DNA from: Deltaproteobacteria bacterium
Lineage (GTDB): Bacteria; Bdellovibrionota; Bdellovibrionia; Bdellovibrionales; Bdellovibrionaceae
Length of the DNA stretch: 49,177 nucleotides
Assembly (NCBI GenBank): GCA_017302835.1
Contig: JAFLCC010000007.1
Location: 143,870-193,046, forward strand
Reading direction: 5' to 3'
Positions 1-41,559 of the stretch are shown in pieces (the first letter of the stretch is position 1; the number at the start of each line of letters is the position of its first letter). Below the pieces are notes generated by a model. The model had not been told where the DNA came from. It ran no database searches and worked only from the letters and a program-made list of their open reading frames with translations. The position numbers were made by a program, and so were the translations under genes.

Positions 1-912
1 TGGACTGAACACACTGACTTCTTAAATGAAAAAACTAATTGTGATATTGATAGTTTATATTTTGAACAAACGTCAAACGCTTGTAGCTTTGATATCACCA
101 CCTGCGTTCCAGAACATGTAAAAAAATTCCAAGATTCGAAACCTCTCATTGAAGGCCCAAATTGTTGGAATCTGTCACTTGTTATCACTGAAATTATTCC
201 CGTCTTGCGCTATACTTCGCCAAACGAAATGTCTTACTATATGAGATCGCCCTTATGTCGCCAAATTTCTGATCAAGACCAGAAACAACCAGGAGATATT
301 GGCGCCATCAGAACTATAAAGAATCAAAAAATTACCGAGTATCACGGTTTTATTTACATTTCTGATAAAATTTCCTATTCTAAAAATGGGTATCAAACGA
401 CGAATGGTTACAGTTTACAAAGCTTAGATTCGATATTTAAACTCTATGATGTTCCAAACAAAAAGCAGTGCAGAAAAAATGAGATCTCAGTTAACACTAA
501 ATGTTCTTTTGCCGTCTCTTATTTTCGTTGTTCATCATTCGAAGATTATTTAAATCATTTACCAGAGTCATCTTGGATCATAGTCAACTTTTTTATTCAA
601 TTGAAGTCGTTTGAATTATTATTGCAAGAAAAAACATTTAATAAAACGCAAATAAGCATTCAAGCTGAAAAGGACATCCTTTTTGAAATCGAGAATTTAG
701 TTCAGTTCCTTAAACTTCAGACTGATCCAAAATATTATTCTTTAAATTTAACGGATCAAAACCTAGGGTTTATTTTGAATAGCCTCCATTTGCGCCTTTA
801 TGGATTGTCCTATCAACTTGCCAATACTAAGGACAATCAGCTTTCAAATAAAGTTTTTGAATACATGCAGGAAATCAGAATTTTAAAATCTTCTTTTCTT
901 CTGCCTAATTAA
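1..912 (+). CDS. Partial CDS (5' end off window): unknown protein with possible NlpC/P60-like Cys-His motif
   Basis: The frame is open from base 1 to a TAA at 910-912, so this is the 3' part of a gene that starts left of the window. The TTG at 205 is only an internal codon. The translation is Cys-rich early on. It contains an N-C-W-N motif (Cys codon 163-165), a G-D-I-G-A-I-R segment, then Y-H-G-F-I-Y-I (His codon 343-345) followed by S-K-N-G-Y. That order resembles NlpC/P60-like papain-fold enzymes (catalytic Cys, then H-x-F-I-Y), but the match is by eye and the family is not assured. The C-terminal half is predicted helical without a recognisable domain. It converges on the cyclase gene 18 bp downstream. 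Function is unknown; a secreted cell-wall or peptide hydrolase is one possibility. Confidence 0.7.
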   Translation, partial: WTEHTDFLNEKTNCDIDSLYFEQTSNACSFDITTCVPEHVKKFQDSKPLIEGPNCWNLSLVITEIIPVLRYTSPNEMSYYMRSPLCRQISDQDQKQPGDIGAIRTIKNQKITEYHGFIYISDKISYSKNGYQTTNGYSLQSLDSIFKLYDVPNKKQCRKNEISVNTKCSFAVSYFRCSSFEDYLNHLPESSWIIVNFFIQLKSFELLLQEKTFNKTQISIQAEKDILFEIENLVQFLKLQTDPKYYSLNLTDQNLGFILNSLHLRLYGLSYQLANTKDNQLSNKVFEYMQEIRILKSSFLLPN

Positions 913-930
913 TTTCTGATGAGGCAAACC

Positions 931-3660: not shown

Positions 3661-3666
3661 TACTTT

Positions 3667-3712
3667 AGGGCCCGTCTAGAATTAAATGTTCGTTCATTTC
3701 TAGACGGGCCCT
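3667..3712. repeat. Perfect 15-bp inverted repeat in a divergent intergenic region
   Basis: Arms 3667-3681 (AGGGCCCGTCTAGAA) and 3698-3712 are exact reverse complements separated by 16 bp. Neither side is followed by a T-run, so it is not a classical intrinsic terminator. It starts 7 bp upstream of the cyclase GTG codon and lies upstream of the divergent YihY gene. It could be an operator for both genes or a small palindromic repeat element; the sequence does not decide. Confidence 0.7.
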
Positions 3713-3787
3713 TAGGCAAGGCCAATAGCTTTAAATAAAGTATTGCCTGTCGTTCTTTCTTTTTCTAAAATTTCTTAAGAGGTATTT

Positions 3788-4600
3788 TTGCTATTTGTAA
3801 CCGTTATCAAAGATGTCATTCAAAAAGTTCGTCAGGGCGATATTCATTTAATAGCAGGATCCCTGGCTTTTACTTCTGTTTTAAGCGTGATCCCTTTTCT
3901 CGCTCTTACCTTAGTTACTTTTAAAACGATTGGTGGGTTGGATTATTTGTCACCCAAAATTGAAAGTCTTATTTTATCCTATTTTAAAGAAGCTGTTGGT
4001 GGTCAAGCGACAGAATGGGTTAAGATTGTCCTTGGTAAAATCCAAGCCAAGACTTTTGGTTCTACGGCCCTTTTTGCCTTGATGTTCACCTCTTGGCGAT
4101 TGTTTAGTGATATGGAATTAGGAATCCAAAAAATTTGGACATCTTCTCAGAAACGACCTCTTTATAAAAAATTTTTCGTCGTGTGGTTTTCAATTTTACT
4201 ATTTCCCACTTTTTTAGCTGTCTATGTAGGGTTCAGATCCTTAGCTCTCGTTAAACCCTTTGTAAAACACTACTCCTCCAGCGCCGATGGCGTCGCATTA
4301 TTTCTGATTCTTTTTTTAATTTATCTCATTTTTCCTGCAGAGAAAGTATTAAAACGAGTTGCTATTTTTTCGGCTTTTTTCGCAACATCGGGAATTATTA
4401 TTTTACAAAATTCTTTTACCTGGTTAGCTAAAGAAGCCTTCTATATGAACAAGTTCTATGGTGGTCTCGCCGCTATCCCCCTATTTTTAATATGGATTTT
4501 AGGTATTTGGCAGATTGTTCTTGTTGGAACCGCCATCGGTTCAAGTCTTCAAAAAAATATTAATAAAAACCGATTCTTATTGCCAAATTTAGTCTCCTAG
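3788..4600 (+). CDS. YihY/BrkB-family inner-membrane protein
   Basis: This 270-residue polytopic membrane protein matches the YihY/virulence factor BrkB (UPF0761) family in length and layout. An amphipathic N-terminus with S-L-A-F-T-S-V-L-S-V-I-P-F is followed by about six membrane helices. The family signature K-F-Y-G-G-L-A-A-I-P-L-F-L-I-W appears near the C-terminus (~residues 221-236). The TTG start at 3788 is supported by an AAGAGG ribosome site at 3777-3782 with a 5-nt spacer; no ATG lies nearby. Its biochemical role is not established for the family, despite old RNase BN naming. It ends 29 bp before the tRNA and is probably host backbone rather than part of the mobile element. Confidence 0.9.
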   Translation: MLFVTVIKDVIQKVRQGDIHLIAGSLAFTSVLSVIPFLALTLVTFKTIGGLDYLSPKIESLILSYFKEAVGGQATEWVKIVLGKIQAKTFGSTALFALMFTSWRLFSDMELGIQKIWTSSQKRPLYKKFFVVWFSILLFPTFLAVYVGFRSLALVKPFVKHYSSSADGVALFLILFLIYLIFPAEKVLKRVAIFSAFFATSGIIILQNSFTWLAKEAFYMNKFYGGLAAIPLFLIWILGIWQIVLVGTAIGSSLQKNINKNRFLLPNLVS

Positions 4601-4621
4601 GGCATATCTATTCTTTAATTT

Positions 4622-6397
4622 TTATTCCAGGTCGCGTAGCTCAGTTGGATAGAGCAATTGCCTTCTAAGCAATAGGTCGCACGTTCGAGTCGTGCCGCGA
4701 TCACCAAACTTACCAATATCCAAACGATGGACCGATAGATTAGAAGTCCCGAAATTATCCCCAGAAACCAGAGAAACACCGACTTCGCTTTGTTCATCTC
4801 GAACTAATTTGAGCTTGCGGCCTTCCGACCCTTTTTCATCAGGATTAGTGAAAAACCAAAACGCCAATTTATCGTGAGCCAACACAACTTGCTTAAGAGT
4901 GTTACGCACCAATCTTTTCTTCAGACCCATCGGGGCCTTATCAAAACCCTTTTCAAAATCAACAATAGTCGAGCGAATAAAATGAGCTGATTCCGAAGCA
5001 TCCACAACATCGTTTTGCATAGACTCAAACATTTTCAAAGTTTCAATGTATTGATTTTTTTGCTTTGCTATCACTTCAAGTCGTTCAGACATCATTTTCA
5101 AAACATCGGAACCAAAGTTGCCTTGTCCCTGCATCCTAAAGATGTTGGTCGCCTCTTGCTCAATAAGAGAAAGTTCTTTTTTTATACTCTCTTTTTGTTC
5201 TGAATAGTCAGTTGACGATTTAGCCGTGAGGACATTCAGCTTTTCTTGCAACTTTTTGAGGTGAGCGGAATCAACAAGGCTGTCGCGCAAATATTTAATG
5301 ACCGCACTCTCAATTACATCAGCGGATACACGCTGAACCTTACATCCATTTTTAGAACCTTTAGTTGTATGCCCATAGTATCTAAAGACAGCATTAGACC
5401 CGTGATAAGACTGTCCTACGAGGGCCTCACCGCACTCGGCGCATTTAAAAATACCTGACAGGATATAAAGGCGTGGGCTTGATCCCTGAAGTCTCGTGCG
5501 CTCAATAGATTTCCCAGTTTCAAGTTGCTCTTGAACCTTGTTGAATAAATCATCCGATACAATTGCTGGCCAAGGAGCCTTAACCACTTGATAACGATGA
5601 TGGGACTTCAATGATTCCTGATCTAGGGCCTTACGACGCTTGTTAACCTCGTGCTGTCCGTTGTAGGTGGCGTTACTAAGAAGGTATCCAAGATTTTCAA
5701 CAGTCCAATGCCGTTGGTGTGTATTTCCCTTTAAAGTCGGGACACACTTTGGTTGAATTCCAAGTTCATTCAATTTCTGAATTGTGCGAGATCTTGATCC
5801 TTGTTCTAGATACAGTTCGAAAATTCTACGAGCTACTTTTGCCTCACTCGGATTCACAACGTAAATACCTGGCTTAGTTGGATCTTTATCAAAACCCAAT
5901 ATCGGACGACCACCATTAAGCAACCCACGCATTCCACGGGCGTGAGCACCAAGCGCAACGCGCTCAGAGGTTTGCTCTCGTTCAAATTGAGCCAAGGTGA
6001 TAATTTGATAAACCATCATGCGACCAATTGAAGTACTCGTATCGAATTGTTCTTTGATGGAAAGAAATCCGGACTTATGCTTCTCAAGAAAACTAAGTAA
6101 TCCACAAAAGTCGAGCAAGTTACGAGATAAGCGAGATAAGTCAGGCACCAAGATCAAGTCGATCTTCTTACTTTTCAGATCTAGCATCATTCTTTGGTAA
6201 GCTGGTCTATTCGTGTCTTTCGCAGAAAAGCCATCATCGACATAAAAATCGACAATCTTACCCCATGATTTTTCCTGGATATTTTTGGAATCAACATAAG
6301 CTTTCAAGCGGTATCGTTGGTTGTCGAGGGAACCTTCGACAGCCGCAGCTTGTTCTTCCGTACTCACTCGAATGTACGCTCCAATTTTATGCGGCAT
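4622..6397 (-). CDS. Large serine recombinase (site-specific integrase of the element)
   Basis: This enzyme cuts and rejoins attachment sites to integrate and excise the element. The N-terminal resolvase domain (residues ~5-150) carries the catalytic Ser12 in Y-I-R-V-S-T-E-E-Q, the D-G-F-S-A motif and the L-S-R-L-S-R-N arginine motif. A recombinase domain (~165-290) follows. A zinc ribbon with C-A-E-C-G and a later G-C is at ~315-350, then a coiled coil to ~450. The ATG at 6397 has a strong GGGAGGATT ribosome site. The gene has no stop before the tRNA: its last ~26 codons are the antisense of the tRNA, and the TAA lies at 4622-4624 in host DNA. The chromosomal C-terminus is therefore a chimera, and the circular form must encode a different tail. 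It is the last gene of the minus-strand operon starting at 7254. Confidence 0.95.
   Translation of the reverse strand: MPHKIGAYIRVSTEEQAAAVEGSLDNQRYRLKAYVDSKNIQEKSWGKIVDFYVDDGFSAKDTNRPAYQRMMLDLKSKKIDLILVPDLSRLSRNLLDFCGLLSFLEKHKSGFLSIKEQFDTSTSIGRMMVYQIITLAQFEREQTSERVALGAHARGMRGLLNGGRPILGFDKDPTKPGIYVVNPSEAKVARRIFELYLEQGSRSRTIQKLNELGIQPKCVPTLKGNTHQRHWTVENLGYLLSNATYNGQHEVNKRRKALDQESLKSHHRYQVVKAPWPAIVSDDLFNKVQEQLETGKSIERTRLQGSSPRLYILSGIFKCAECGEALVGQSYHGSNAVFRYYGHTTKGSKNGCKVQRVSADVIESAVIKYLRDSLVDSAHLKKLQEKLNVLTAKSSTDYSEQKESIKKELSLIEQEATNIFRMQGQGNFGSDVLKMMSERLEVIAKQKNQYIETLKMFESMQNDVVDASESAHFIRSTIVDFEKGFDKAPMGLKKRLVRNTLKQVVLAHDKLAFWFFTNPDEKGSEGRKLKLVRDEQSEVGVSLVSGDNFGTSNLSVHRLDIGKFGDRGTTRTCDLLLRRQLLYPTELRDLE
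4630..4706 (+). tRNA. tRNA-Arg (anticodon TCT)
   Basis: A full cloverleaf folds by eye. Acceptor stem 4630-4636 pairs with 4696-4702 (one G-T wobble). The D arm is 4639-4655, the anticodon stem is 4657-4661/4669-4673, and the loop CTTCTAA has anticodon TCT at 4664-4666. The T arm is 4679-4695 with loop TTCGAGT, the discriminator is A4703, and CCA is encoded at 4704-4706. It reads AGA codons. It sits exactly at the junction between backbone and the recombinase end of the mobile element, so it is very likely the integration target. It stays intact after insertion. Confidence 0.96.
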
Positions 6398-6554
6398 CTG
6401 AATCCTCCCAACTCTCCATCTTGCGAGGTCGCCCCCGTTTTGGCTGATGAAGCATCATTTGATAAAGAATCTCAACAATTTCCTCGTTGCGGCGACGTGA
6501 GTTCAGCGACTCGTCTGCTACATATTCGACAGTGATTGGAGGCAACTGAGTCAT
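6387..6554 (-). CDS. Small basic protein with AT-hook-like motif
   Basis: The ATG at 6554 gives 55 residues, with an AAGGA ribosome site about 10 nt upstream. A TTG at 6590 overlapping the preceding stop would give 67 residues and is a possible alternative. The C-terminal K-R-G-R-P-R-K is an AT-hook-like minor-groove binding motif. It overlaps the recombinase start by 11 bp, so it is translationally coupled to the integrase. By position it could be a recombination directionality factor or accessory DNA-binding protein, but nothing in the sequence proves this. A second small protein with K-R-G-R-P-P-G lies at 27201-27407. Confidence 0.65.
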   Translation of the reverse strand: MTQLPPITVEYVADESLNSRRRNEEIVEILYQMMLHQPKRGRPRKMESWEDSDAA

Positions 6555-6586
6555 CGTTTTTGATTCCTTCTTTTTCCTACGCCTGC

Positions 6587-6841
6587 TCAACGCAGGTTCC
6601 GTTTAGATTTGGCCGCCTTCAGTTCGTCCGCAACTTCCTTCATAAGCTCAAGAAGGGTTTTGAACTGATTTGGCTTAACTCTATCAAGGGTTTTCATCAC
6701 AACCTGCACCGTCGGTCCAGGCACGCGAAAACCCATTTCGTATTGGCTGACAGTTTTCTGGGTCAACCCCAAACACTCTGCCAACTCACTTTGCGTTAAG
6801 CCAAAAGACTCTCGAATTTTCTTAAACTCTTGAGGTTTCAA
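6587..6841 (-). CDS. XRE-family helix-turn-helix regulator
   Basis: This 84-residue protein is essentially one Cro/C1-type HTH. F-K-K-I-R-E-S-F-G-L-T-Q-S-E-L-A occupies residues ~6-21, followed by L-G-L-T-Q-K-T-V-S-Q-Y-E-M-G at ~24-37, with a short helical tail. The start overlaps the upstream stop as ATGA at 6838-6841. It sits between the ribbon-helix-helix-like gene and the AT-hook gene in the recombinase operon. It is a probable repressor or regulator of integration/excision; binding target unknown. Confidence 0.88.
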   Translation of the reverse strand: MKPQEFKKIRESFGLTQSELAECLGLTQKTVSQYEMGFRVPGPTVQVVMKTLDRVKPNQFKTLLELMKEVADELKAAKSKRNLR

Positions 6842-7254
6842 CTTGCCTCCGATTCGTCAATGGTAGCATTGCTACCGTTGGGCTGTCTAGGCTTTTTAAC
6901 CTTTTTGGAGCCAGGAGTTAAGCCTGCGTTTGCAAAGAGTATTTCCCGCAAGTTATCTGGAATGAGGCCCGAATCCATAGCTCGCTTATAGGCAACCCGT
7001 AAAAGATCCACTTCGGAAACATTTCGCATATACAAAGTTTTAGTGTCCTCATCACTAAAGCTTGGGCAATGCTTTTCAAGAACGTAGCTAGCAAGCATCA
7101 CTTTTGTGATTTTAACGGCATCGGCGTTTCCATTGATGCTCTTATGCAACGAAGACAACGCTTCATCTGCCTCAATCGAAATCCGTATGAATTTTCCTGT
7201 CTCATTGTTTTCATCTTTATTTGTTTTTGTTTCCTGTTCTTTATTTTCCTTCAT
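6838..7254 (-). CDS. Hypothetical protein, possible ribbon-helix-helix DNA-binding/relaxosome accessory factor
   Basis: The ATG at 7254 has an exceptional AGGAGGTGGAGGT leader. The first ~20 residues are charged and disordered. Residues ~22-62 (F-I-R-I-S-I-E-A-D-E-A-L, then a helical stretch with K-I-T-K-V-M-L-A-S-Y-V-L) look like a ribbon-helix-helix fold. The C-terminus is basic (K-K-V-K-K-P-R-Q). It is the first gene of the recombinase operon and lies immediately downstream of the 7297-7400 nested palindrome. An oriT-binding accessory protein or autoregulator is plausible, but I do not recognise the family with certainty. Confidence 0.75.
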   Translation of the reverse strand: MKENKEQETKTNKDENNETGKFIRISIEADEALSSLHKSINGNADAVKITKVMLASYVLEKHCPSFSDEDTKTLYMRNVSEVDLLRVAYKRAMDSGLIPDNLREILFANAGLTPGSKKVKKPRQPNGSNATIDESEAS

Positions 7255-7296
7255 ACCTCCACCTCCTATTTTAATTATTATTATCTAATCTGTATT

Positions 7297-7400
7297 CCCA
7301 CCCAACTCCTCCCCCTGGTTCCTGTCCACCTTCAACCAACTACTCGTTGGGTGGGGGTGGACAGGAAGAGCTACTGCTCAAGGGGGAGGAGTTGGGTGGG
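7297..7400. repeat. 104-bp nested palindrome, candidate oriT
   Basis: The outer arms 7297-7316 and 7381-7400 are perfect 20-bp inverted repeats. Inner arms 7320-7330 (TCCTGTCCACC) and 7356-7366 are perfect 11-bp repeats, and innermost CCAAC 7336-7340 pairs with GTTGG 7346-7350. Together they can form one long cruciform in an otherwise gene-free gap of 177 bp. The gap lies between a candidate relaxase gene (7432-8238) and a candidate DNA-binding gene (start 7254). Location between transfer and integration modules and multiple nested arms fit an origin of transfer. Strand bias (C-rich left arm, G-rich right arm) is strong. A terminator or operator role is also possible; no nic site is assignable by eye. 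Confidence 0.5.
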
Positions 7401-7431
7401 TCCCATGTCTTTGATTTCTCTTCGATTTTTT

Positions 7432-8238
7432 TCATACGGCCTCGCTTTCTGCTGAGTTTCTAAATGAAATGGCTTTTTCATTTAGAGTTCTTTTAGAACT
7501 TCCCGCTGCGACGATCTGCTTTGTGACGACTTCTAAAAAAATCTGAATCGAATACTCACGCGTGCCGAACCGAATTCTCGTTTTAAGTCCCAGTGCCGTG
7601 AAATCTGGGTATTGAAAGATACCGGGAACCCGGTTCGCATCGGCAAAGGCTTTGCCTTGAAACCCACGACTGACGGCAACCTCCGTTGCAAGACTGCCGC
7701 AGGCAAAAAGGATCAAATTAATTTTTGAATAGTCCAGATACGCTAGACCAATTTTCGAATAGCGGCTTTGCGTCTTCGTGGTTTTCTCAACCTCATAAGC
7801 GCAGCGAATCACGCCAGTTGATGTTTTAAGCTCAAAAACAACATCTGGTATTCGGTGAACGCGTGCTGATCCAAGAATGTCATATGTGTCCAGCGGATTA
7901 CTCATTAGATCGTTTTCAAGCCAGTAGCGGCTAACGAGTCCGGTCTGCTGTAACGTCATCAGAAATCGGGCCGCAACCGAATCATGGTCAATGTATGCTG
8001 GCAATCTGGAAGGGCGCGCAGTTTCACCGAATATTTTTCTACGGCTCTTATGGCCTAAGAGCAGAACATTTTCTGAAGCCTGGGACCGCACAAAAAGCCC
8101 GTCTTCAGTTAGCGAACGCCAATAGCGGTAGTTTTGTGTCGGACTCATTCGACAAATAAAATCGTAGAATAAGTCTTTCGTGAGAAATCCCCAGCGCGCT
8201 GCAAACTCCAAAGCCTCCTTAGTAATTTGATCGTTCAT
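7432..8238 (-). CDS. Winged-helix plus PD-(D/E)XK protein, candidate MOBC-like relaxase / replication-relaxation family
   Basis: The ATG at 8238 (268 aa) follows GTGAGGCAG and starts 6 bp after the lipoprotein stop. An upstream ATG at 8331 would sit inside that gene and is unlikely. Residues ~5-52 form a winged-helix module (R-W-G-F-L-T, then Y-R-Y-W-R-S-L-T-E-D-G-L). Residues ~85-165 contain H85, P131-D132, E149-x-E151, K155 and R159, the order of a PD-(D/E)XK nuclease core. It resembles Replic_Relax proteins and the MobC (CloDF13-type, MOBC) relaxases, which have a restriction-endonuclease-like fold. No HUH or other canonical relaxase is present in the window, and the gene abuts the coupling-protein/lipoprotein pair and the nested palindrome. 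I infer that it is the DNA-processing enzyme of the element. Confidence 0.7.
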   Translation of the reverse strand: MNDQITKEALEFAARWGFLTKDLFYDFICRMSPTQNYRYWRSLTEDGLFVRSQASENVLLLGHKSRRKIFGETARPSRLPAYIDHDSVAARFLMTLQQTGLVSRYWLENDLMSNPLDTYDILGSARVHRIPDVVFELKTSTGVIRCAYEVEKTTKTQSRYSKIGLAYLDYSKINLILFACGSLATEVAVSRGFQGKAFADANRVPGIFQYPDFTALGLKTRIRFGTREYSIQIFLEVVTKQIVAAGSSKRTLNEKAISFRNSAESEAV

Positions 8239-8243
8239 CTGCC

Positions 8244-8531
8244 TCACTTGGAATCCTTTGTCTGAGAACTTTGAACCAAAACAAAATGGCCGAGTTCGAT
8301 ACGACCGCCTTTCAAGTCTGGTTCGACCCATTCAAGCGTGAACTGTGACAGATTTGAATTTTTAAGACTTTCAGGTATTTTCAAATCGGAACCGACAGTC
8401 ACCTGACGGATACGAACTTGGCAGGTGTCTTTACCAGCCAATACAACACCTGAGCCTTCAGGATTTCCGCACTTCGGCAAGTGGGTACACCCTGACAACG
8501 CAACGACAAGTGCCAAAAATATAATTTTCAT
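8244..8531 (-). CDS. Small lipoprotein in the T4SS operon (possible VirB7 counterpart)
   Basis: This 95-residue protein has a lipoprotein signal: K-I-I-F-L-A-L-V-V-A, then lipobox L-S-G-C with the lipidated Cys15. The mature part includes two further Cys residues (C21, C37) and beta-rich sequence. The start overlaps the VirD4 stop as ATGA at 8528-8531. VirB7-type lipoproteins stabilise the VirB9/VirB10 outer-membrane core complex. Size, lipobox and operon position fit, but similarity is not diagnostic. Confidence 0.8.
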   Translation of the reverse strand: MKIIFLALVVALSGCTHLPKCGNPEGSGVVLAGKDTCQVRIRQVTVGSDLKIPESLKNSNLSQFTLEWVEPDLKGGRIELGHFVLVQSSQTKDSK

Positions 8532-10174
8532 GCTGCCTCCTTTTGTTGGTGAGCTGCTTTTGTTAACAGCTCATTGACGGCTTCGGTCTGCTCATTTCTT
8601 TGTTTTACATCTGTAAATGTAGGCATTCCGGCCGGAGCTGATTTCTTAAGTTTCGGGATCACTGGCTTATCGAGATCAAAGCTTCGTTTGAATTTAATCC
8701 GAACGGGAAGGCTTCCGTTTGCGTGTGGCAAAACCATAATCGCCTCTCCCACGCCAAGATCTTGCTTAAAAAGATTCGGATGAAACTTGAACTCTTCGGC
8801 TTCCCTGACAGAGCCGTCGCCGGTTTTAGTAGCCCCCATGAAACCATCTTTTTGTCGTTCGGTAACTTTGGTCGTCTGAATTGTTCCGATGACTGACGAG
8901 AAATACTCGGCCGATTCGGGCTCATTGGTCCTCATAAAGACCTTCAAATTTGAGTTGGTCAGAATCGTATTTTTGACTCCCGCGCCAAGCTCCTCAAGAT
9001 CGCCTAACGCTTGATGGGCGAAAACAATCGCGACATTCGCGCTTCTGGATTTATTAAGCAGCGTCACAAAACTCGGGGTCAGATACTCAGTAAAATCGTC
9101 CAAGTAGACTGAGAAAAAATTGTTGTGCTCTGATCTTCCTAAGTGTCTTGAAGATACGGCACTCTGAAGACACTGGAGAATAATTTTTCCCGTGGCTTTA
9201 CCAAGCGTCGGAATTTTAAGAGCTGGCAACTGACAGTAAATGATTTCACCGTTTTCAAGAGCGCGCTCCAAATCAATGTCCGAATTTTCGCTATTGAAAA
9301 GCGTTGCCGTTTCACCGACTGCGAAACTTTGAAGTTGTGCGACAAGGCCGCTTGTTCGTTGCTCGCGGTCTTCACGCTTGAGGCTTAGGAAATCTTTGGC
9401 CCATGCCTGAAGATTTGAATCCGTCGATTGACTTGCAAGGTTCGCCAAATGCTTTTCATGTTTCAGGCATTCGATGACTCGGAACGGAGTCGGCTTCACC
9501 TTGGCGTCTTCCAGTAAAAGCAGGCAATGAAGAAAGGCGTCGTACTGAATACTTTTGAAATATTCATTTTCGAAGTTCAGCGCCGCAAATACACGCTCCG
9601 CTACTTCAAGCACTGAGCCATTAGTAAATGGATTGAATGTATGACTGATGTCCACGTTGCAAAGTGACAGAATCCGAAAGTCACCCTCTCGATGATGCCT
9701 TTTTGCATAGGCGTAAAGCTTATCAAGAAGGCTACGATCAGATTTTCCGTCAATGATTAGTAGGCCTCGGCCCTTTTTAATGTCGTCAACAGCCCAAGGG
9801 ACAATGACCGACTCAGTTTTGCCGGCGTTTGTAGTGCCGACAACCTGAGTGTGCATCCGTCTGTGTGACTGCTTGATATGAACTGATTTACCTTTTGGCG
9901 TAATACCAGCAAAGACTGAATCTTCGTTCTTGCAAGGGCCAATAACTTCGTTTTCGATATCGGCATCTTTGAAATTCGCGAGTATCTTGTTTTTGACCTT
10001 AACGTAAACCGCAAGAATGCCGACAGTGATACCGAATGCGATGGCGTAGCGAAATTTAATATAGCAGGCGACGATCTCCGGCTTGAATTTTAACCAGCCA
10101 ACAAAAAGAGTGGCCATCGTTACTAGAAATATAAATCCTCGGTCTGTCATTTCTGATTTTTTATCTTCACTCAT
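8528..10174 (-). CDS. VirD4/TraD/TraG-family type IV coupling protein
   Basis: This is the inner-membrane ATPase that hands the relaxase-DNA complex to the secretion channel. The ATG at 10174 (548 aa) is chosen because AGGAGGTG lies just upstream; an earlier start at 10210 would skip it. Two membrane helices lie at ~14-30 and ~42-60. The Walker A motif G-T-T-N-A-G-K-T-E is at ~112-121, with I-I-D-G-K-S-D shortly after. Walker B V-Y-L-D-D-F is at ~356. The start overlaps the VirB10 stop by 8 bp. The C-terminus, rich in Lys, Gln and Ala, may recognise the relaxosome. Length is typical of TraG/TraD/VirD4 proteins. Confidence 0.93.
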   Translation of the reverse strand: MSEDKKSEMTDRGFIFLVTMATLFVGWLKFKPEIVACYIKFRYAIAFGITVGILAVYVKVKNKILANFKDADIENEVIGPCKNEDSVFAGITPKGKSVHIKQSHRRMHTQVVGTTNAGKTESVIVPWAVDDIKKGRGLLIIDGKSDRSLLDKLYAYAKRHHREGDFRILSLCNVDISHTFNPFTNGSVLEVAERVFAALNFENEYFKSIQYDAFLHCLLLLEDAKVKPTPFRVIECLKHEKHLANLASQSTDSNLQAWAKDFLSLKREDREQRTSGLVAQLQSFAVGETATLFNSENSDIDLERALENGEIIYCQLPALKIPTLGKATGKIILQCLQSAVSSRHLGRSEHNNFFSVYLDDFTEYLTPSFVTLLNKSRSANVAIVFAHQALGDLEELGAGVKNTILTNSNLKVFMRTNEPESAEYFSSVIGTIQTTKVTERQKDGFMGATKTGDGSVREAEEFKFHPNLFKQDLGVGEAIMVLPHANGSLPVRIKFKRSFDLDKPVIPKLKKSAPAGMPTFTDVKQRNEQTEAVNELLTKAAHQQKEAA

Positions 10175-11126
10175 AAGTATCACCTCCTTCTTGTAGTTTA
10201 AGCGCAGCACTCAACACAGCGTCACATTCGACGCCGGGGGTGAGTTCAATCCACTCGCGTTCTGTTTTTAGTTTTTCACCGTAGTTTTGCGCTCTTGACT
10301 GCGCAGTGGCGGCAACCGCACCAAGTAAACCGTTTTCAATTCCGCCTTTAGAGCGGCCCAAGATATCGGTTTCCATACTTCCTGCGGCAAGTCCCCCAAC
10401 AAATGTCGTGAGGACTTGGCCTGCGGTATTTTTCATTCCGTCTGAAAAAACTCGGCCTGGAACTCCGGGCTGACCATCTTTACTTAAAGCAAGAGCTGAA
10501 ACTTTTCTGATTTGTCCGCTGGGTAAAGAAATCTGCGTAAAGCGAATCGTTGCGCGGTCCGATCCTTTTTGAAAACTTGCTTCACCATAAAACCTAGTAC
10601 CAGCCACAAGATTCAACCCTGAGTCCGTCTGCGAATCTAAAATCAGTTCAGCTAAGATCGGGACAGAATCCTGCGACACGATAACTTTATCTAAAATACG
10701 AAGTGGAAGCCTAATTCCGGCGCGAAGTTCTGTTTTTGCGTTGCCACCCTTGGAGCCAATGAACATCGAAGTATTGTGATTCACCTGTGAAGCGTCACCG
10801 CCGTGAGCCGTTGGCATCTTTGGTGAACCCCAGAGCCCTTGAGCTGAACTGCTGGCTTGATTGGGATCGGCGCCGGTTTTATCCTCACTTGTGCCAGGTT
10901 CAGGCCGATCAATTTTTTCCGTGAACTCAACCGGGATATCCGTCGGCATCAAAAAAACGACGCCGACAAAAACCAGAATGCCGATCAATCCGATAACTTT
11001 GAAAGTTTTGAATTTAAGTTCAACTTTTTGGCTGAATTCATTTTTCTCGACAAAGTTTTGACGGAATTTTGAAACACTAGATTTTACTTTCTGGAAGATA
11101 CCCTGCGCTCGTTGCTTTACTTCCAT
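10167..11126 (-). CDS. virB10: VirB10/TrbI/TraB-family T4SS core protein
   Basis: This envelope-spanning scaffold links the inner-membrane ATPases to the outer-membrane pore. A cytoplasmic N-terminus (~45 aa) precedes one membrane helix (V-I-G-L-I-G-I-L-V-F at ~44-60). A low-complexity Pro/Ser/Gly periplasmic linker comes next, then the TrbI C-terminal domain from ~150. That domain has the hallmark S-Q-D-S-V-P-I-L-A-E and the antenna-like region G-Q-V-L-T-T-F-V-G-G. Length of 319 aa is at the short end for VirB10. It overlaps the VirB9 stop by 10 bp at its start. Confidence 0.9.
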   Translation of the reverse strand: MEVKQRAQGIFQKVKSSVSKFRQNFVEKNEFSQKVELKFKTFKVIGLIGILVFVGVVFLMPTDIPVEFTEKIDRPEPGTSEDKTGADPNQASSSAQGLWGSPKMPTAHGGDASQVNHNTSMFIGSKGGNAKTELRAGIRLPLRILDKVIVSQDSVPILAELILDSQTDSGLNLVAGTRFYGEASFQKGSDRATIRFTQISLPSGQIRKVSALALSKDGQPGVPGRVFSDGMKNTAGQVLTTFVGGLAAGSMETDILGRSKGGIENGLLGAVAATAQSRAQNYGEKLKTEREWIELTPGVECDAVLSAALKLQEGGDTYE

Positions 11127-11827
11127 AAAATATCCTCAGACAGTGTTACTGAAACCTTTTTTTCCAGATGAATCTCAACGGTCACAGGTTTTTTAGATTT
11201 GAGATCCGACTTCGCAAGCGAGATCCCAATCAAAATCGATTTTTCTCGTGATAATTTTGTAGTCGATAAAAAAAGACCGTTGATGACTTTTGAATCGGTG
11301 CCTTGCTTGATCCAAACAGCTTCCGGCTTTAAGACTAAATCTTTTGACGATTTCAAAGAGAGTGTCGCATCAATCAAAATAAAGCCGCTCTCAGAAAATC
11401 CAATTTTTCGAATGGTCAGCCTTGTACCGTCGATTTCCTCAGACTTCCCAAGACTGACCCATTTTGTCGCGGTCTGCGCCGGATCAGGAGCCTTGACGTA
11501 AACGATGTAGTCCGCAGACGCTTGCGGAAGAGTAAGCAATCGAATGTTGTATCGTCGCTTTTCGGTGACCAGATACAAATTCGTTTTCACTCCCCAGCGA
11601 AGAGGCTTGATCGTAACGGCACGATCAAGATATTCGACTTTGAACCCTGATTGATCGCCAATGATGGCAGAGCCAATCGTTTCAGGAAGTTGAATGATCG
11701 TGGCAATCCCGAGTGCAGTTTTGACAGTCAAAATGTCATCACTTTTGACCGTCACTTTGCGAACTTGGGCATGGGCTGAAGACGCAAACAAAATTAGAAC
11801 GACAAGTGCCGAAATGATCTTACTCAT
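11117..11827 (-). CDS. virB9: VirB9/TrbG/TraK-like T4SS core protein
   Basis: This is a periplasmic/outer-membrane component of the secretion core. The ATG at 11827 overlaps the upstream stop (ATGA). The first ~20 residues form a signal peptide (I-I-S-A-L-V-V-L-I-L-F-A-S-S-A-H-A, cut before Q). The rest is beta-rich, with an N-terminal domain containing the Y-N-I-R-L-L motif typical of VirB9/TrbG, and a C-terminal beta-sandwich segment. Position between VirB8 and VirB10 supports the call more than any single motif. Confidence 0.85.
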   Translation of the reverse strand: MSKIISALVVLILFASSAHAQVRKVTVKSDDILTVKTALGIATIIQLPETIGSAIIGDQSGFKVEYLDRAVTIKPLRWGVKTNLYLVTEKRRYNIRLLTLPQASADYIVYVKAPDPAQTATKWVSLGKSEEIDGTRLTIRKIGFSESGFILIDATLSLKSSKDLVLKPEAVWIKQGTDSKVINGLFLSTTKLSREKSILIGISLAKSDLKSKKPVTVEIHLEKKVSVTLSEDILWK

Positions 11828-12414
11828 CGTGCGGCCTCTTCCGTCTCTTTGGTAATATAAACGCCCCAAGGATTTACGAGAGTACGGTCGTCAGTCGAAA
11901 ATTGAAAAGTCAGCCGCATTTCTGTGGCAGCTTTTAAGTTGTCGAACTCTGTGATTCTGTCAGCAAGAACAGTGACCTTTTTTTCCTTCAAGTCTACAGA
12001 TACAGATTTTGGGTAAACTCGCTGTCGAACTTTCTTTTCTCGAACAAACTTCATAGTGTCGGCCATGGATTTCTCAAATGCAGAAACTAGACTCGGAAGT
12101 ACAAAGAACTTTGCCTTACCGATTTCATTAGAAATCGTTTTCTCGTCCCAAGAATATCGGTAGCCGATATATTCTTTGATGGCTGATTCGATCTGAATGT
12201 CTGTGATTTTTGATTCAATTCTCGCAATTGATCCAGTGTTATCAAGCGCGATCACTGTCGGACCTTTTTTCACGAGATACAGAACGAGCATGAGCATCAA
12301 AAACAAAAGACCAAGCAGTGCTCCGCAGAGGAATTTGATATTTAGATTTTCTTCGGCGAACTCACGCATAGCTTTTGGATAGCCACTTAATTGCAACGTC
12401 ATTTTTTTATTCAT
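11824..12414 (-). CDS. virB8: VirB8/TraE-like T4SS inner-membrane protein
   Basis: This 196-residue bitopic protein has a cytoplasmic N-terminus, one membrane helix (G-A-L-L-G-L-L-F-L-M-L-M-L-V at ~31-48) and a periplasmic NTF2-like domain. The ending ...T-L-V-N-P-W-G-V-Y-I-T-K resembles TraE of F-type systems, which shares the VirB8 fold. AAGGAGGTG precedes the ATG by 5 nt. VirB8 nucleates assembly of the channel and contacts VirB10 and the pilus base. Neighbours VirB6 and VirB9 match the usual order. Confidence 0.87.
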   Translation of the reverse strand: MNKKMTLQLSGYPKAMREFAEENLNIKFLCGALLGLLFLMLMLVLYLVKKGPTVIALDNTGSIARIESKITDIQIESAIKEYIGYRYSWDEKTISNEIGKAKFFVLPSLVSAFEKSMADTMKFVREKKVRQRVYPKSVSVDLKEKKVTVLADRITEFDNLKAATEMRLTFQFSTDDRTLVNPWGVYITKETEEAAR

Positions 12415-12426
12415 AATGCACCTCCT

Positions 12427-13305
12427 TTAGGACCCTTTGGGTCCGTTAAATTTATTTTGAATGTTCTGTAGTTTTTGGCCGGCATAGGACTTCATATATG
12501 AGAGCTCTTGTCTGGTGACTTGCTTGACCGCCATCATCTTCGCTGGCAAACCAGCCATCGCAACGGCTGCCGTTGTTCCGATTGTCTGAGCTGTCGCTTG
12601 AACGCCTTCGCCGATGAGCGAACGCATAATCATAGGCGTTAAAAGCATCGCAATCGCGATCACGAAATTCATGATAATCAGCGTGAGGTAGCTGCCATCA
12701 GTCTTGTAGATGTCCCCGAATGAAATCGAAGCCAACATCGCCGACATGACGGCCCAAATAATCTTCCAGCACGCGACTTCTATAAGCCCTCGATAAAGAT
12801 TCGCCGTGATGCCTGCTGTCCTTGGGAAGATGTAGCAAAGAATCATCAGGGGCGCGCAAATCGACAACAGCACCCAATAGAAATAGTAAAGTGCCACAGT
12901 GATGTATCTTGCGAAATACAAAATGATGAAGCTTCCAAAACTTAAAACGGCCATAAAAAGATCGTCAAATTTTAGTAGCAAAACATTCTTTGCCGTTGCG
13001 TAGCTGTGGGATTTCTCTTGGGCCATTCTCATAAACGTCTCAAGCCCCGACATATTGTCGATCTTCAGCGCAATACCGTCACAAATATCCAAAATAATAT
13101 TTGAAACTTCCGGAAACGATGCAAGTAACAGGGCCGCAACAAAGCTTCGCTTAATGACGTCAGGGTAATTTGCATCACCCGATTTTAAGTACCCAAAAAC
13201 CACCGAGAATAAAATCGCAAGCGGGAGCATCACATAAAAAAGCTGACTCAAACCCTGATAAAGATCGCGGACAAGCGTACCAAGAACCTCAAGATGCGGA
13301 ATCAC
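12427..13305 (-). CDS. virB6: VirB6/TrbL-like polytopic T4SS protein
   Basis: This 292-residue protein has six or so membrane helices, beginning L-F-Y-V-M-L-P-L-A-I-L-F-S and ending I-A-M-L-L-T-P-M-I. It includes the W-K-I-I-W-A-V-M-S-A-M-L segment characteristic of TrbL/VirB6 proteins. It forms the inner-membrane channel. GTG start at 13305 overlaps the VirB5 stop (GTGA) and has GGAGGTGG upstream. The C-terminal ~60 residues are soluble and basic. Confidence 0.88.
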   Translation of the reverse strand: MIPHLEVLGTLVRDLYQGLSQLFYVMLPLAILFSVVFGYLKSGDANYPDVIKRSFVAALLLASFPEVSNIILDICDGIALKIDNMSGLETFMRMAQEKSHSYATAKNVLLLKFDDLFMAVLSFGSFIILYFARYITVALYYFYWVLLSICAPLMILCYIFPRTAGITANLYRGLIEVACWKIIWAVMSAMLASISFGDIYKTDGSYLTLIIMNFVIAIAMLLTPMIMRSLIGEGVQATAQTIGTTAAVAMAGLPAKMMAVKQVTRQELSYMKSYAGQKLQNIQNKFNGPKGS

Positions 13306-14003
13306 TTGCCACCTCCAAGCCGAGGCAGATCAGTTTTTTTCGGGAGTCCATCGAAACCGCGCGAAAGCCCTTGGTAGTTTTCTTGAAAGTTCTGTGTCGC
13401 GAGCTTTTCCTTACGATTATCGTAGGCCATATTCTGGGCCATGATCTTTAGCATCTGACTTTGTGTCCGCAAAAGCTGAGTGGTCACACCAATTAAAACA
13501 CCAAGCGCCTGGTTCTGAAGTTTTCCTGCTCCTTGAGGGCTTACGACCTGCGCGTGAAAAAGAATTTTTTCTTTTTCACGGTCCACTTGATCAGCATAGT
13601 CGTAGAGATTTCGATTCATCGAAATGACTTCAGCGACGCTTTGATCCTGTGACTTCATCAGGTCTTCGTCCATGCCTTGCGGAATGGTGCCGTAAACGGC
13701 CTGAAGCGCCCGCAGAACAGAGTCTGCGTCATTCAGATTTCCGTACACGCCGGGATTGAAATTAGGATTCACGATTCGAATGAGATCGAGTCCGCTCCTG
13801 ACGCCAGCATTGATGTCACGCAATAGATCAAGTGAGTCCTTTCCATTTTCAAGAACACTTTTAAGTGTGATGACTGTCTGAATGGCCTGGGCTAAAATCT
13901 GGGTTAAGACCAAAACATCGCCGCCAAACAAATCTGCCTTCGCAGGCTTCGGACTCAGCAATAAAAGAGCTGAAACTAAAATCGTCAAAATTCGTTTTTT
14001 CAT
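13302..14003 (-). CDS. virB5: VirB5/TrbJ-like periplasmic T4SS protein
   Basis: This 233-residue secreted helical protein has a signal peptide at 1-23 (I-L-T-I-L-V-S-A-L-L-L-L-S, cut after K-A). A TrbJ-like start D-L-F-G-G-D-V-L-V-L-T-Q-I-L and long amphipathic helices follow. VirB5/TrbJ proteins are minor pilus-tip or assembly factors. Its place between VirB4 and VirB6 is canonical. The start overlaps the VirB4 stop as ATGA. Confidence 0.83.
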   Translation of the reverse strand: MKKRILTILVSALLLLSPKPAKADLFGGDVLVLTQILAQAIQTVITLKSVLENGKDSLDLLRDINAGVRSGLDLIRIVNPNFNPGVYGNLNDADSVLRALQAVYGTIPQGMDEDLMKSQDQSVAEVISMNRNLYDYADQVDREKEKILFHAQVVSPQGAGKLQNQALGVLIGVTTQLLRTQSQMLKIMAQNMAYDNRKEKLATQNFQENYQGLSRGFDGLPKKTDLPRLGGGK

Positions 14004-16465
14004 GCGGCCACCTCCTTCATTGAGGAAACACCGAAGGGTGCAAGCTCGGCCGCTTTGAAAAGTGCCGCCTCAAGCGAAAGCCCATCGAGTTTCAATTTTT
14101 CTAAAAATTGGTTGTCTCTGGAATCTGAAGTCGAAATCCAATACTCAAGCGGTGATGGTTGAATTCTGATGACCTGACGGCTTTCGCCCTCCATCAAGAA
14201 ACCTTCACTAAAAACACCTTTTCGCTGTTCAACACTTTGGATAAGCCTGAGTTCCTGCGTGTTCAGTTTCAAAGCGTCACGTAAAACTTTGGTGTCACCC
14301 TTTTGAAGCATGATGAGCTTTGTTGCGGTATTATTCAGAATCGCAGGCCCCATGCCACTTGCGATGATTTCTTCAACACCTTGTGTGATGAAAGTAATGC
14401 CGCTACCAGTTTTTCTAAAAGTTCTAGCTGCGTACTCCATGAATTGACTGGCCGCTGGACTTTTTAAAAGTTCCCACGCCTCGTCAAGAAGCACGCGCTT
14501 AGGGACTGTTCGGTCAGACTCGATCTGCTCTAAGATAAAGTTCGTCAGAATCAAGATCATGACCGACTGCAAATCGGGATACTGAGATAGCCCCTTCAGA
14601 TCAAAAGCCACAATGGTTCGGTCGGCCTCAATTTTACCAACGCCGTCGAGAAGCTTTCCGTAGGGAGTCCCACCGATCCACGGGAAAAGAAGCTTTCCGA
14701 TCCGTTTGAGCGAATCATCGGAATCTGCTAGACAATGCTTCGCCAGATCTGAAAGCATGGGCGAGCGCGGTGAAGGCCCGCTCCGGGCTTTTAAGAATAC
14801 ACTTGTTAGTGCCGCTTCAAGTTGGACCCGATCAAACCGCGAAAGCTTTTCGCCTTGATCGACAACCATCTGCTCGACGATACTGACAAGGCCCTTTAGC
14901 CTGTCGCCCGAGGGCTCCACACTTGGATCTTTCAGCTCGAACGGATTTAAAACGTACTGACCAGAAAGATTGATCTCGAAGTATTGACCATCCAGTACTT
15001 CAGTCATCTTTTTGTAAGATCCGCCGATGTCGATCACATACACGCGAGTTCCACGCGCAATCTGCTGAAGCATCAAAAAATTATTCGCAAAACTTTTACC
15101 TGAGCCACTGGACCCCGTGACCAGCGAATTAAAATTGCTCAAGCGAGACGAGTACGGATTGAATGAATACAAAGTTCCAAGTCTTGTCTTAAGCAAGCAC
15201 ACTGGGTTCTCGTCACCCATCGATGCACCATAAAGCGGAAAGAAATCGACAAGATTATTTGTCTTCATCCGCTTCGCTCGAACTAGCGACATTGGCGCTA
15301 GTGGGAGATTGGATCTAAAAATCTTCCAGCTTCCGACAGTTTCTTGAGTTCCCTCGGAGCCGCTCAAAGTTTTGAACTTCGATAGAATCTCTTTTGTATG
15401 CAGATTGATTCTGCGCTCGCCGTCTTTCGTTGCGGCTTCACGCAAAATAATCAGAAGCTCGGCTTGAAAAATTCTTTGGCCCGTTTCGATGATTTCGCGA
15501 ATTAAGTCTGTCGTCTGCGAAAGCCTTGTTTCGCTTTCCAAATCTGAAACACGATTGCTTGATGAACTTGAAAGGGAGTGCGCCATACGCCGCTTCTGCT
15601 CTAAACTTTTTATTTCTTTGGCTTGATCTGGAATCTTCATCGAAAAGAGAAGTTCGTACTTAAACGGCAGGGCCAAAAAACCGCTCATCATTCCTGCGTA
15701 AGTCATTTCAGGCAGTGTTTTAAGGGTGATGACTCGTGTTTTCAGACCATCAAGATTAAAATCCTCTTGATCGAGCACGAGATCGCCAAAGACTAGCTGC
15801 TCCCTCGGTGACGGATCGTCAATGTCAGCCGTGCGAATACAAATATTCGGAGCGGTCACAACCTCTGCTCGGCTGGGATTAAGATGTTCGTACTGAATTT
15901 GAACTAAATCTTCTTTTGAGCAGTCGTGCGCAACAAAACCAAGCGATGCCAAAGTTGATTTTGCATTTTCTAAAGCCTGGCTAAGAGTCTGAAGGCGATC
16001 CTCGAATCCTTTTTCAAAATCGGCGGCAAACTTTTTTGTTTGTGTAAGCGAAAAGACACCGGGCCGTTCAGCGCCTTCGGTTTTTAGAAAATAAAGAAGC
16101 CGAGGCCTGAATAGAAATCCAGCCTTTACTTGATCAACCAAGTTTTCAGCGCGCTTTTGATCAAGCCGTTTTAGAAAATCATTTGGTGTCGTAACAAGCG
16201 CCGTGTGCTTTTGAATGACGTCCTCAACGTCAGACTCGATTTTGACCATAAACTGCGAAGTTGTGCCCTCGGGCAATGAATTCGCAAAAGCCCGAAGACC
16301 AAGGGTCAACTGGTTAATGCGGGATTCATCAAAACACTCAATATCAAGCGGCAGCAGTTCAAACCCGGATGAGATTGATCCATCCCAAAGAATTGCATGA
16401 GGGATTGGTTTTGGTTCAAATTCCCAGAACGGTAAACTTTCGCACAAAGAATGTGCTTCGCTCAC
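14000..16465 (-). CDS. virB4: VirB4/TraC/TrbE-family conjugation ATPase
   Basis: This 821-residue T4SS motor ATPase has an N-terminal CagE/TrbE/VirB region. Walker A T-G-S-S-G-S-G-K-S-F lies at ~446-455 and Walker B R-V-L-L-D-E-A-W-E-L-L at ~655-665, then F-I-T-Q-G-V-E-E-I sensor-like sequence. The start is GTG at 16465, overlapping the VirB3 stop (GTGA). No separate VirB11 ATPase is found anywhere in the window, so VirB4 with VirD4 would be the only ATPases, as in several Gram-positive and F-type systems. Confidence 0.95.
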   Translation of the reverse strand: MSEAHSLCESLPFWEFEPKPIPHAILWDGSISSGFELLPLDIECFDESRINQLTLGLRAFANSLPEGTTSQFMVKIESDVEDVIQKHTALVTTPNDFLKRLDQKRAENLVDQVKAGFLFRPRLLYFLKTEGAERPGVFSLTQTKKFAADFEKGFEDRLQTLSQALENAKSTLASLGFVAHDCSKEDLVQIQYEHLNPSRAEVVTAPNICIRTADIDDPSPREQLVFGDLVLDQEDFNLDGLKTRVITLKTLPEMTYAGMMSGFLALPFKYELLFSMKIPDQAKEIKSLEQKRRMAHSLSSSSSNRVSDLESETRLSQTTDLIREIIETGQRIFQAELLIILREAATKDGERRINLHTKEILSKFKTLSGSEGTQETVGSWKIFRSNLPLAPMSLVRAKRMKTNNLVDFFPLYGASMGDENPVCLLKTRLGTLYSFNPYSSRLSNFNSLVTGSSGSGKSFANNFLMLQQIARGTRVYVIDIGGSYKKMTEVLDGQYFEINLSGQYVLNPFELKDPSVEPSGDRLKGLVSIVEQMVVDQGEKLSRFDRVQLEAALTSVFLKARSGPSPRSPMLSDLAKHCLADSDDSLKRIGKLLFPWIGGTPYGKLLDGVGKIEADRTIVAFDLKGLSQYPDLQSVMILILTNFILEQIESDRTVPKRVLLDEAWELLKSPAASQFMEYAARTFRKTGSGITFITQGVEEIIASGMGPAILNNTATKLIMLQKGDTKVLRDALKLNTQELRLIQSVEQRKGVFSEGFLMEGESRQVIRIQPSPLEYWISTSDSRDNQFLEKLKLDGLSLEAALFKAAELAPFGVSSMKEVAA

Positions 16466-16785
16466 TTGGCACCGTCGCTTCCGAAGCGTCGATACTTTTT
16501 GTCTGGGCTATTGGCAGACGATACTGTTGGCGAAATCAGATGCTCGAAAAAGTGCTGAAGAAATTGATCTGGTTTTCCTTTTTTGAAAAAGAATAGAATC
16601 CCAGCTAGAAATACGCTGGTGCCAAACACCATCGGAATTTTTAAAGAAGTTGATCCAAAAATTAAATTTTGGACCGATAGATTCAAAAGCAAAACGAGCA
16701 CGTCAGAAAGTTCTAGTCCCAGAATTTTATTTTTTGTCTCCAGTGTTCTGGGCACAGAGGAAGTTAGAAGATTGTCGTCACTCAT
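16462..16785 (-). CDS. virB3: VirB3/TraL-like small T4SS membrane protein
   Basis: The ATG at 16785 gives 107 residues and overlaps the VirB2 stop (TAATG); the longer frame to 16863 would run through the pilin gene. It has an N-terminal soluble stretch, two closely spaced hydrophobic helices (L-G-L-E-L-S-D-V-L-V-L-L and V-F-G-T-S-V-F-L-A-G-I-L-F-F) and a basic tail, the VirB3/TraL plan. Placement between VirB2 and VirB4 is the standard order. Confidence 0.83.
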   Translation of the reverse strand: MSDDNLLTSSVPRTLETKNKILGLELSDVLVLLLNLSVQNLIFGSTSLKIPMVFGTSVFLAGILFFFKKGKPDQFLQHFFEHLISPTVSSANSPDKKYRRFGSDGAK

Positions 16786-17072
16786 TAGCGCACCGTCTGC
16801 GAAATGAAATCGACGATGGCCTGAGCCCCGAACCCAATGATGGAGCCAAGAATGGCGTACCACATGTGTTGTTTAGCTCTCTCGTTACCGCTCATCAGTG
16901 AAAATGCCGCCCAAGCAATCCCGATAATCGAAAGAGTTGGCAGAATTACGCGCGTGAGTTTGGTTTGTATTCCAACAAGCGAAGATTCAACACTGGCGAA
17001 GCCAAGCTCTGGAACAAGCACAAGTGCCAACAAAAGCGCCGCAAAAGTTAGAAACAGTTTTTTATTCTTCAT
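16785..17072 (-). CDS. virB2: VirB2/TrbC-family pilin
   Basis: The ATG at 17072 (95 aa) follows AAGGAGGTGATCTT; the open frame upstream to 17267 overlaps another gene and is rejected. A long signal peptide runs to ~F-A-S (residues 1-26). Two hydrophobic helices follow (V-I-L-P-T-L-S-I-I-G-I-A-W-A-A and H-M-W-Y-A-I-L-G-S-I-I-G-F-G-A-Q-A-I), as in TrbC/VirB2 prepilins. This is the conjugative pilus subunit. Confidence 0.9.
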   Translation of the reverse strand: MKNKKLFLTFAALLLALVLVPELGFASVESSLVGIQTKLTRVILPTLSIIGIAWAAFSLMSGNERAKQHMWYAILGSIIGFGAQAIVDFISQTVR

Positions 17073-17094
17073 AAGATCACCTCCTTTTTTAAAG

Positions 17095-17508
17095 TTAGAT
17101 TGCAATGGAGTCCTCTTTGGCTTCGCCCTTGTCTGGAAAAAGGCATAAGAAGATATTTTCCGGAAGAAGCTGCACTCTGAGCGCGATGAAGCTACCGACA
17201 AGCCGCCCTTCGCCGATTCGATTCCAACTCGTGCGGTTTTCACCAGAAGGCAACTGGTATTCTTCAAGGCTTAAGACGATATATTTCGTGTCGTCTTTTT
17301 CGTCGGGCACGACAAAATACTGATGGCTCGGAAACAAAAATAGTTTCAGTCGAAACTTTTTAGATCCCTGTTTTAGAAAGGCGATTCCAACGCTTTCACC
17401 TTCAATAATTTCGCCGCTCGATGTGACCTCGCCGACATAGACGCCGAAGCTGTCGGACTTACGAATTGGGATGACATTGCTGAATGGAAAATTTGAGTTG
17501 TCGTTCAT
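17095..17508 (-). CDS. Hypothetical protein in the T4SS operon
   Basis: This is a 137-residue, predicted mostly beta protein without signal peptide or membrane helix. It starts with ATGA overlap on the preceding gene's stop and ends 22 bp before the pilin start. Features include F-G-V-Y-V-G-E-V near the N-terminus and repeated Tyr/Phe/Val strands. The fold could be an OB- or SH3-like barrel. I do not recognise a family. Co-transcription with pilin and VirB3 suggests a role in transfer or its regulation. Confidence 0.75.
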   Translation of the reverse strand: MNDNSNFPFSNVIPIRKSDSFGVYVGEVTSSGEIIEGESVGIAFLKQGSKKFRLKLFLFPSHQYFVVPDEKDDTKYIVLSLEEYQLPSGENRTSWNRIGEGRLVGSFIALRVQLLPENIFLCLFPDKGEAKEDSIAI

Positions 17509-25160: not shown

Positions 25161-25166
25161 ATAATC

Positions 25167-41545: not shown

Positions 41546-41559
41546 GCAGGGGGCAAAAA

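Follow-up and report, generated by a model that had tools for sequence, protein, structure and literature searches.

The MOBC relaxases are an established non-HUH family and are present on ICEs. Their prototype is TraX of plasmid pAD1, which a review describes as a MarR-like winged helix joined to a PD-(D/E)XK domain (PMC12857230, citing Francia et al. 2013). In the Enterobacteriaceae, the family is represented by the MOBC ICEs and plasmids ICEKp1, HPI-ECOR31 and pMET1/pCRY; as described in PMC2262945, these elements combine a VirB channel with MOBC-type mobilization genes, and the nic sites of pMET1 and HPI-ECOR31 are reported to lie inside an inverted repeat. CloDF13 and its relatives are mobilizable plasmids with the order oriT-mobB-mobC. 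The CloDF13 record NC_002119 (L073, positions 6840-7513) has mobC split over two reading frames, and PLSDB types CloDF13 as non-mobilizable and its intact relatives as MOBC. Because mobC is broken in NC_002119, the intact relatives were used for MobC; the plasmids supplying these sequences are typed 'relaxase MOBC' by PLSDB.

The element studied here lies in a window of 49,177 nucleotides (the whole stretch of DNA that was analysed). Like ICEKp1, HPI-ECOR31 and pMET1/pCRY it joins a VirB channel to mobilization genes of MOBC type, whereas its T4SS and its integration module differ from theirs, as described in PMC2262945. The main T4SS genes and the VirD4 gene reported in the original prediction are real: VirD4, VirB10, VirB9, VirB8, VirB4 and VirB2 are above the Pfam cut-off. 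VirB6 and VirB3 were assigned from matches under this cut-off and VirB5 by position only, and no VirB11 or VirB1 gene was recognised in the Pfam scan of the window ORFs. The gene of the 268-aa protein, the putative relaxase, belongs to an operon-like run with the lipoprotein-like ORF, VirD4, VirB10, VirB9, VirB8, VirB6, the VirB5-position gene, VirB4, VirB3 and VirB2. It is followed on its 3' side by the palindrome, the 138-aa gene, the HTH gene, a 67-aa ORF and the large serine recombinase (table 1). This order, VirD4-(lipoprotein)-relaxase-oriT, differs from that of the CloDF13-type plasmids, and the ICE that carries it brings a T4SS of its own. The lipoprotein-like ORF is possibly VirB7-like; its PHROGs match is to Cor superinfection-exclusion. 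The 138-aa protein had no match in the profile search, and its sequence pattern looks like that of a ribbon-helix-helix auxiliary protein.

Table 1. Features of the element. Positions are those of the window, except for the protein domains.
Feature	Position	Strand	Basis or remark
Large serine recombinase of the element	4622..6397	-	3' end overlaps tRNA-Arg 4630-4706 (+)
Small HTH regulator	6587..6841	-	conserved in module
138-aa accessory gene	6838..7254	-	conserved; across the palindrome from the relaxase gene
Nested palindrome, probable oriT	7297..7400		conservation and shared core
Outer arms	7297-7316/7381-7400		20 bp
Inner arms	7319-7330/7356-7367		12 bp, GGTGGACAGGAA; small central stem
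Predicted nic, GGTG/GACAGG	7326..7327	-	analogy with the presumed CloDF13 nic
Predicted mirror nic site	7359/7360	+	analogy with the presumed CloDF13 nic
Putative MOBC-type relaxase, 268 aa	7432..8238	-	ORF and family alignments, predicted fold
Winged-helix domain	residues about 1-73
PD-(D/E)XK domain	residues about 74-248
95-aa lipoprotein-like ORF	8244..8531	-	between VirD4 and relaxase genes; signal-like N terminus
VirD4/TraD-type coupling protein	8528..10210	-	Pfam
VirB10/TrbI	10167..11126	-	Pfam
VirB9/CagX	11117..11869	-	Pfam
VirB8	11824..12414	-	Pfam
VirB6/TrbL-like	12427..13305	-	match below Pfam cut-off
Putative VirB5-position gene, conserved	13302..14003	-	position; no family match
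VirB4-type ATPase	14000..16465	-	Pfam
VirB3-like	16462..16863	-	match below Pfam cut-off
VirB2/TrbC pilin	16785..17267	-	Pfam; true start probably downstream of ORF start

The 268-aa reading frame starts at 8238, with its stop side at 7432 on the minus strand. Starting instead at the in-frame ATG at 8331 would lengthen the protein to 299 aa; this start, however, falls within the lipoprotein-like ORF upstream (8244-8531), and the position of the 8238 start is the one used by close relatives. Residues H85, P131-D132, E149-x-E151, K155 and R159 stand where the original prediction had located them, and the alignments indicate a pattern beyond chance. Columns H85, D86, P131, D132, E149, E151, K155 and Y160 are invariant in the alignment of 31 relatives, a set that almost coincides with the residues of the original prediction. 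A wider alignment of 58 sequences includes the CloDF13-type plasmid MobC and reaches down to 11% identity with the 268-aa protein; H85, P131, D132, E149, E151 and K155 are kept in all 58, and R159 (56/58), Y160 (51/58) and Y167 (54/58) are nearly invariant.

CloDF13 MobC and the MobC proteins of related small enterobacterial plasmids have the same pattern, H...PD...ExE-x3-K-x3-RY-x6-Y. The spacing from the first glutamate, E149 in the 268-aa protein (+2 E, +6 K, +10 R, +11 Y, +18 Y), is identical in plasmid MobC, at an overall identity of about 22%, and the partner gene is in both cases that of the coupling protein. The residues of TraX reportedly follow the order E-x-E-x3-K-x3-R-Y, in agreement with the 268-aa protein. 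A profile scan of genome contigs found the family mainly on Bdellovibrionales contigs; no relative turned up when the 268-aa protein was compared by tblastn with the plasmids of PLSDB, or when viral contigs were scanned.

The suggested comparison with the MOBC and Replic_Relax families was positive for the first and negative for the second. Against a MobC alignment composed of three CloDF13-type plasmid proteins and five Bdellovibrionota relatives that match the MobC model, hhalign gives 99.2% (E 1.3e-19, 192 columns); a closer subset of the family, aligned with the CloDF13-type plasmid proteins alone, gives 94.5% (E 8e-8). The NCBIfam MobC model NF041423 matches 23 of 31 relatives, the best at 4e-9 and all under the strict cut-off, and it matches the 268-aa protein itself over the catalytic stretch (E 1e-3, 18.4 bits). 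No protein of 60 genomes scores above the curated cut-off of 200 bits. Because the 268-aa protein is far below this value, its sequence places it in a divergent MOBC branch, outside the subfamily NF041423 MobC_subf (CloDF13-like). In the tree, an ICE branch with support 100/98 stands apart from the sequences of CloDF13 type and from the relatives of these; this branch holds 30 of the 31 family rows, L019 grouping with the other side, and the tool warned of long branches.

Replic_Relax (PF13814) does not match the 268-aa protein (E 0.1). None of 31 aligned proteins (the 268-aa protein and 30 relatives) reaches this family at E 0.01, and there is no match in the host genome. The label is shared with MOBC-like proteins, and some relatives in the genomes studied do reach PF13814. 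Pfam as a whole has no match for the 268-aa protein or any of 31 relatives, and PHROGs and a PDB sequence search with the 268-aa protein gave no significant match, so that these libraries alone would leave it 'unknown'. Since MOBC relaxases are already known on ICEs, the protein lies within the known classes, as a new member of one of them. Two things seem to be new: this branch, which Pfam misses, and the palindrome core described below in its general form; neither was found described in the literature searched, which lay mostly outside subscription journals.

Structure prediction supports the winged helix expected by the original prediction, together with a PD-(D/E)XK domain. An AlphaFold2 model built from 15 sequences has a pLDDT of 87.8 for the whole protein and 91.3 for the catalytic domain alone. 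In VIA-align, residues 1-73 of the model match MarR-type winged helices and the catalytic domain matches mostly PD-(D/E)XK nucleases (Z 5.8-7.7). The latter include Can2, Cdn1, the R.BspD6I small subunit, SdaI, BstEII and the nickase N.BspD6I, and further FokI, BsaWI, SgrAI, AgeI and Hjc. The Z values of these predicted-fold matches are modest (under 8) yet consistent in kind; no solved structure was retrieved when the family profile was used for a sequence search. The predicted two-domain plan is that of TraX, as described for TraX in PMC12857230.

The proximity of the 268-aa gene to the coupling protein gene, pointed out in the original prediction, is a general property of these loci. When VirD4 was searched in 60 related genomes (E below 1e-118), all 37 VirD4 genes of this type were immediately followed, within 570 nt and on the same strand, by a MOBC-like gene; starting from VirD4 makes this a test of linkage without bias from the relaxase. 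The search for a canonical relaxase, whose presence elsewhere would have spoken against the 268-aa protein, found nothing in the host genome with PF03432, PF08751, PF07514 or PF03389; this genome, very probably that of a Bdellovibrio relative, is 99.98% complete, and the window is a contig end. The controls of the HUH profiles PF03432, PF08751 and PF03389 (MOBP/Q, MOBF, MobA/L) gave signal. The MOBH profile TraI_2 (PF07514) likewise had no match in the host genome, nor had the MOBV profile Mob_Pre (PF01076), but the control set of the latter was silent too, which makes it a weak test. None of the proteins in a Pfam scan of most of the larger window ORFs is a relaxase.

The same genome carries a second T4SS locus, with VirD4, VirB10, VirB9 and VirB6, on contig C14 (L092, positions 1-15000). 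Its MOBC-like gene (1840-2682, minus strand) has Leu at the position of Y160, and a nested palindrome is found at 1630-1764, with inner arms CTTCCTGACCACT/AGTGGTCAGGAAG.

Such a second locus, with its MOBC-like gene and oriT-like palindrome, would suit a reading in which the 268-aa protein is an oriT-binding, regulatory or replication-initiation relative of MOBC and nicking is done in trans by the C14 protein or by an unrecognised one; the family label 'replication-relaxation' points the same way. We consider this very improbable, given that all putative catalytic residues of the 268-aa protein are intact and invariant, that the VirD4 linkage holds in 37 of 37 cases, and that a MOBC-like gene and a palindrome belong to each of the two T4SS loci of the host genome. 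Almost certainly, then, the 268-aa protein is the DNA-nicking enzyme of a self-transmissible element, a divergent MOBC relaxase apparently built like a restriction enzyme; we infer its catalytic activity from sequence and predicted fold.

The nested palindrome noticed in the original prediction is real, its 20-bp outer and 12-bp inner arms all being perfect, and its DNA fold is far more stable than that of shuffled sequences (z = -11.2). It does adjoin the relaxase gene, as predicted; its exact place is 30 nt downstream of the stop codon, before a conserved small gene. A palindrome is found at the same place in 24 related loci. In the inner stem of these, 99.0% of the cells pair, nine of the 12 pairs change on both sides and none on one side only, and the covariation score of 0.481 exceeds both the 0.144 of shuffles and the maximum of 0.110 obtained on sliding. 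Most positions of the outer arms covary as well. The compensation proceeds without G-U pairs, which points to a constraint on DNA rather than on RNA. The palindrome also matches Rfam models, but these matches are artefacts of miRNA hairpins and score far below gathering level. In seven loci (L021, L022, L023, L024, L032, L033 and L035) the oriT-like palindrome is followed by another long inverted repeat, which lies some 200-320 nt beyond the 3' end of the relaxase gene and is weaker in some loci (AGAGAATTAGATCAGGTAGGCC/GGCCTACCTGATCTAATTCTCT with a loop of 74 in L024); the window, whose intergenic region is short, lacks this repeat there.

The core of the palindrome, CTGACCACC...GGTGGTCAG, recurs in the mobilization region of CloDF13, where a nearby inverted repeat has the arms (C)TGACCACC / GGTGGTCA(G), like the palindrome here; the latter differs from that of CloDF13 in being nested, since a further outer arm, the longer of the two, encloses it. 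Upstream of CloDF13 mobB, GACCACCCGCAAAA/TTTTGTGGGTGGTC overlaps GGGTGGTCGGG, which occurs once in CloDF13 and is reportedly its mapped nic, GGGTG/GTCGGG. The related plasmids have the same repeat upstream of mobB. The binding site of TraX consists of direct repeats far from nic, and none such was seen for the 268-aa protein.

A TGACC/GGTCA inverted repeat of at least 9 bp lies within 1.2 kb in 15 of 20 further MOBC-like loci, which were examined only after the shared core had been noticed and some of which are close relatives of each other; at least two of the core-negative loci are on contigs ending near the gene. The same test gives 0/44 in control stretches and 0/1000 in shuffles, which were made by simply shuffling two-base blocks. 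When all 1024 five-base cores are ranked, TGACC shares the first place with its overlapping neighbours GACCA and ACCAC. The core variant of the window itself, TGTCCACC/GGTGGACA, is changed in both arms.

Taken by itself, conservation of the palindrome could also reflect a regulator site. It fills a gap between two same-strand genes, and palindromes are common shapes of operators and terminators, as would suit a terminator or an operator of the accessory and HTH genes with the relaxase acting elsewhere. We give this little credence: no T run follows the palindrome arm, the compensation without G-U steps indicates a DNA rather than an RNA constraint, the same core is present in the CloDF13 mobilization region, and it accompanies MOBC-like genes of varied gene order, 5' or 3'. 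The palindrome is the probable transfer origin, an assignment consistent with the nic sites inside inverted repeats reported for pMET1 and HPI-ECOR31 in PMC2262945.

The MOBC-like identity first proposed for the 268-aa protein is favoured by the profile relation, the predicted fold, the lack of matches to canonical relaxase profiles in the genome, the VirD4 linkage and the conserved palindrome with its core shared with CloDF13. The best joint explanation of these data, to which we assign a probability of about nine in ten, is that the protein is the divergent MOBC relaxase of an ICE and the nested palindrome its oriT. Transfer would begin with excision of the element by the serine recombinase. 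The 268-aa protein, perhaps dimeric through its winged helices, would bind the palindrome together with the small accessory protein of 138 aa, which would assist, and its H/PD/ExE/K site would nick one strand in an inner arm near GGTG/GWC. VirD4 would then pass the strand to the VirB channel, and after re-joining in the recipient the circle would reintegrate at a tRNA gene.

The cut itself may proceed through a covalent tyrosine, for which Y160 is the candidate, or by metal-dependent hydrolysis. According to the review PMC12857230, no covalent intermediate has been seen for TraX. In seven aligned MOBC-like proteins (L092, L094-L098 and L110), the position of Y160 is occupied by I or L while H/PD/ExE/K are kept, and the palindrome core lies beside five of their genes (L092, L094, L096, L097 and L098). 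Either this group uses another residue or Y160 would not be the universal nucleophile. On account of these Y160-less proteins, which retain the H/PD/ExE/K residues and in five cases neighbour the core, it is conceivable, although we think it rather unlikely, that a single oriT code, a nested DNA palindrome with the core CTGACCACC...GGTGGTCAG, is common to the MOBC relaxases of enterobacterial plasmids, of Bdellovibrionota ICEs and of those in between, and that all cut it by a metal-dependent PD-(D/E)XK hydrolysis without a covalent tyrosine. If true, the start of MOBC conjugation would be chemically unlike that of HUH relaxases.

The 3' end of the serine recombinase gene (4622-6397, minus strand) runs antisense through the entire tRNA-Arg gene (4630-4706, plus strand), and in relatives the recombinase ends at or over other tRNA genes (Arg-CCT, Val, Ala, Met, Gln, Pro) or tmRNA. 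Because the recombinase 3' ends run through or lie at such genes, the host target may contribute a portion of the C-terminal sequence of the integrase. No repeat of the tRNA 3' end, which would mark the right attachment site, is present in the window. Near the contig end, a 197-aa ORF (48535-49128, minus strand) with a Recombinase-domain match and a relative at L054 18567-19088 is a possible marker of the element's right part. Positions 21272-26836 encode a histidine kinase, a 273-aa protein, a solute-binding protein and a sigma-54 response regulator; this module is inverted at L054 11722-17276, on the contig of another element at the same tRNA-Arg site, and is either cargo or flank. An exporter cluster at 41533-47527, behind a TetR gene, comprises a TolC-like outer membrane protein, an HlyD-like protein, two ABC ATPases and two ABC-2 permeases.

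The unrecognised VirB11 and VirB1 genes and a right end not found in the window could be read as signs of a decayed element whose relaxase is a relic. Since every T4SS frame is open, the gene order is shared with about 25 other loci and the catalytic residues are intact, decay appears very improbable.

The relaxase and oriT proposed here would supply these two components for a widespread group of ICEs of predatory-bacterium relatives, which would pass for relaxase-less in an annotation based on Pfam. A simple DNA test for MOBC transfer origins would be available in the palindrome core. Together, the covarying palindromes and the natural tyrosine-less variants would make the question of how MOBC relaxases cut and re-join DNA when no covalent intermediate has been detected (PMC12857230) directly testable.
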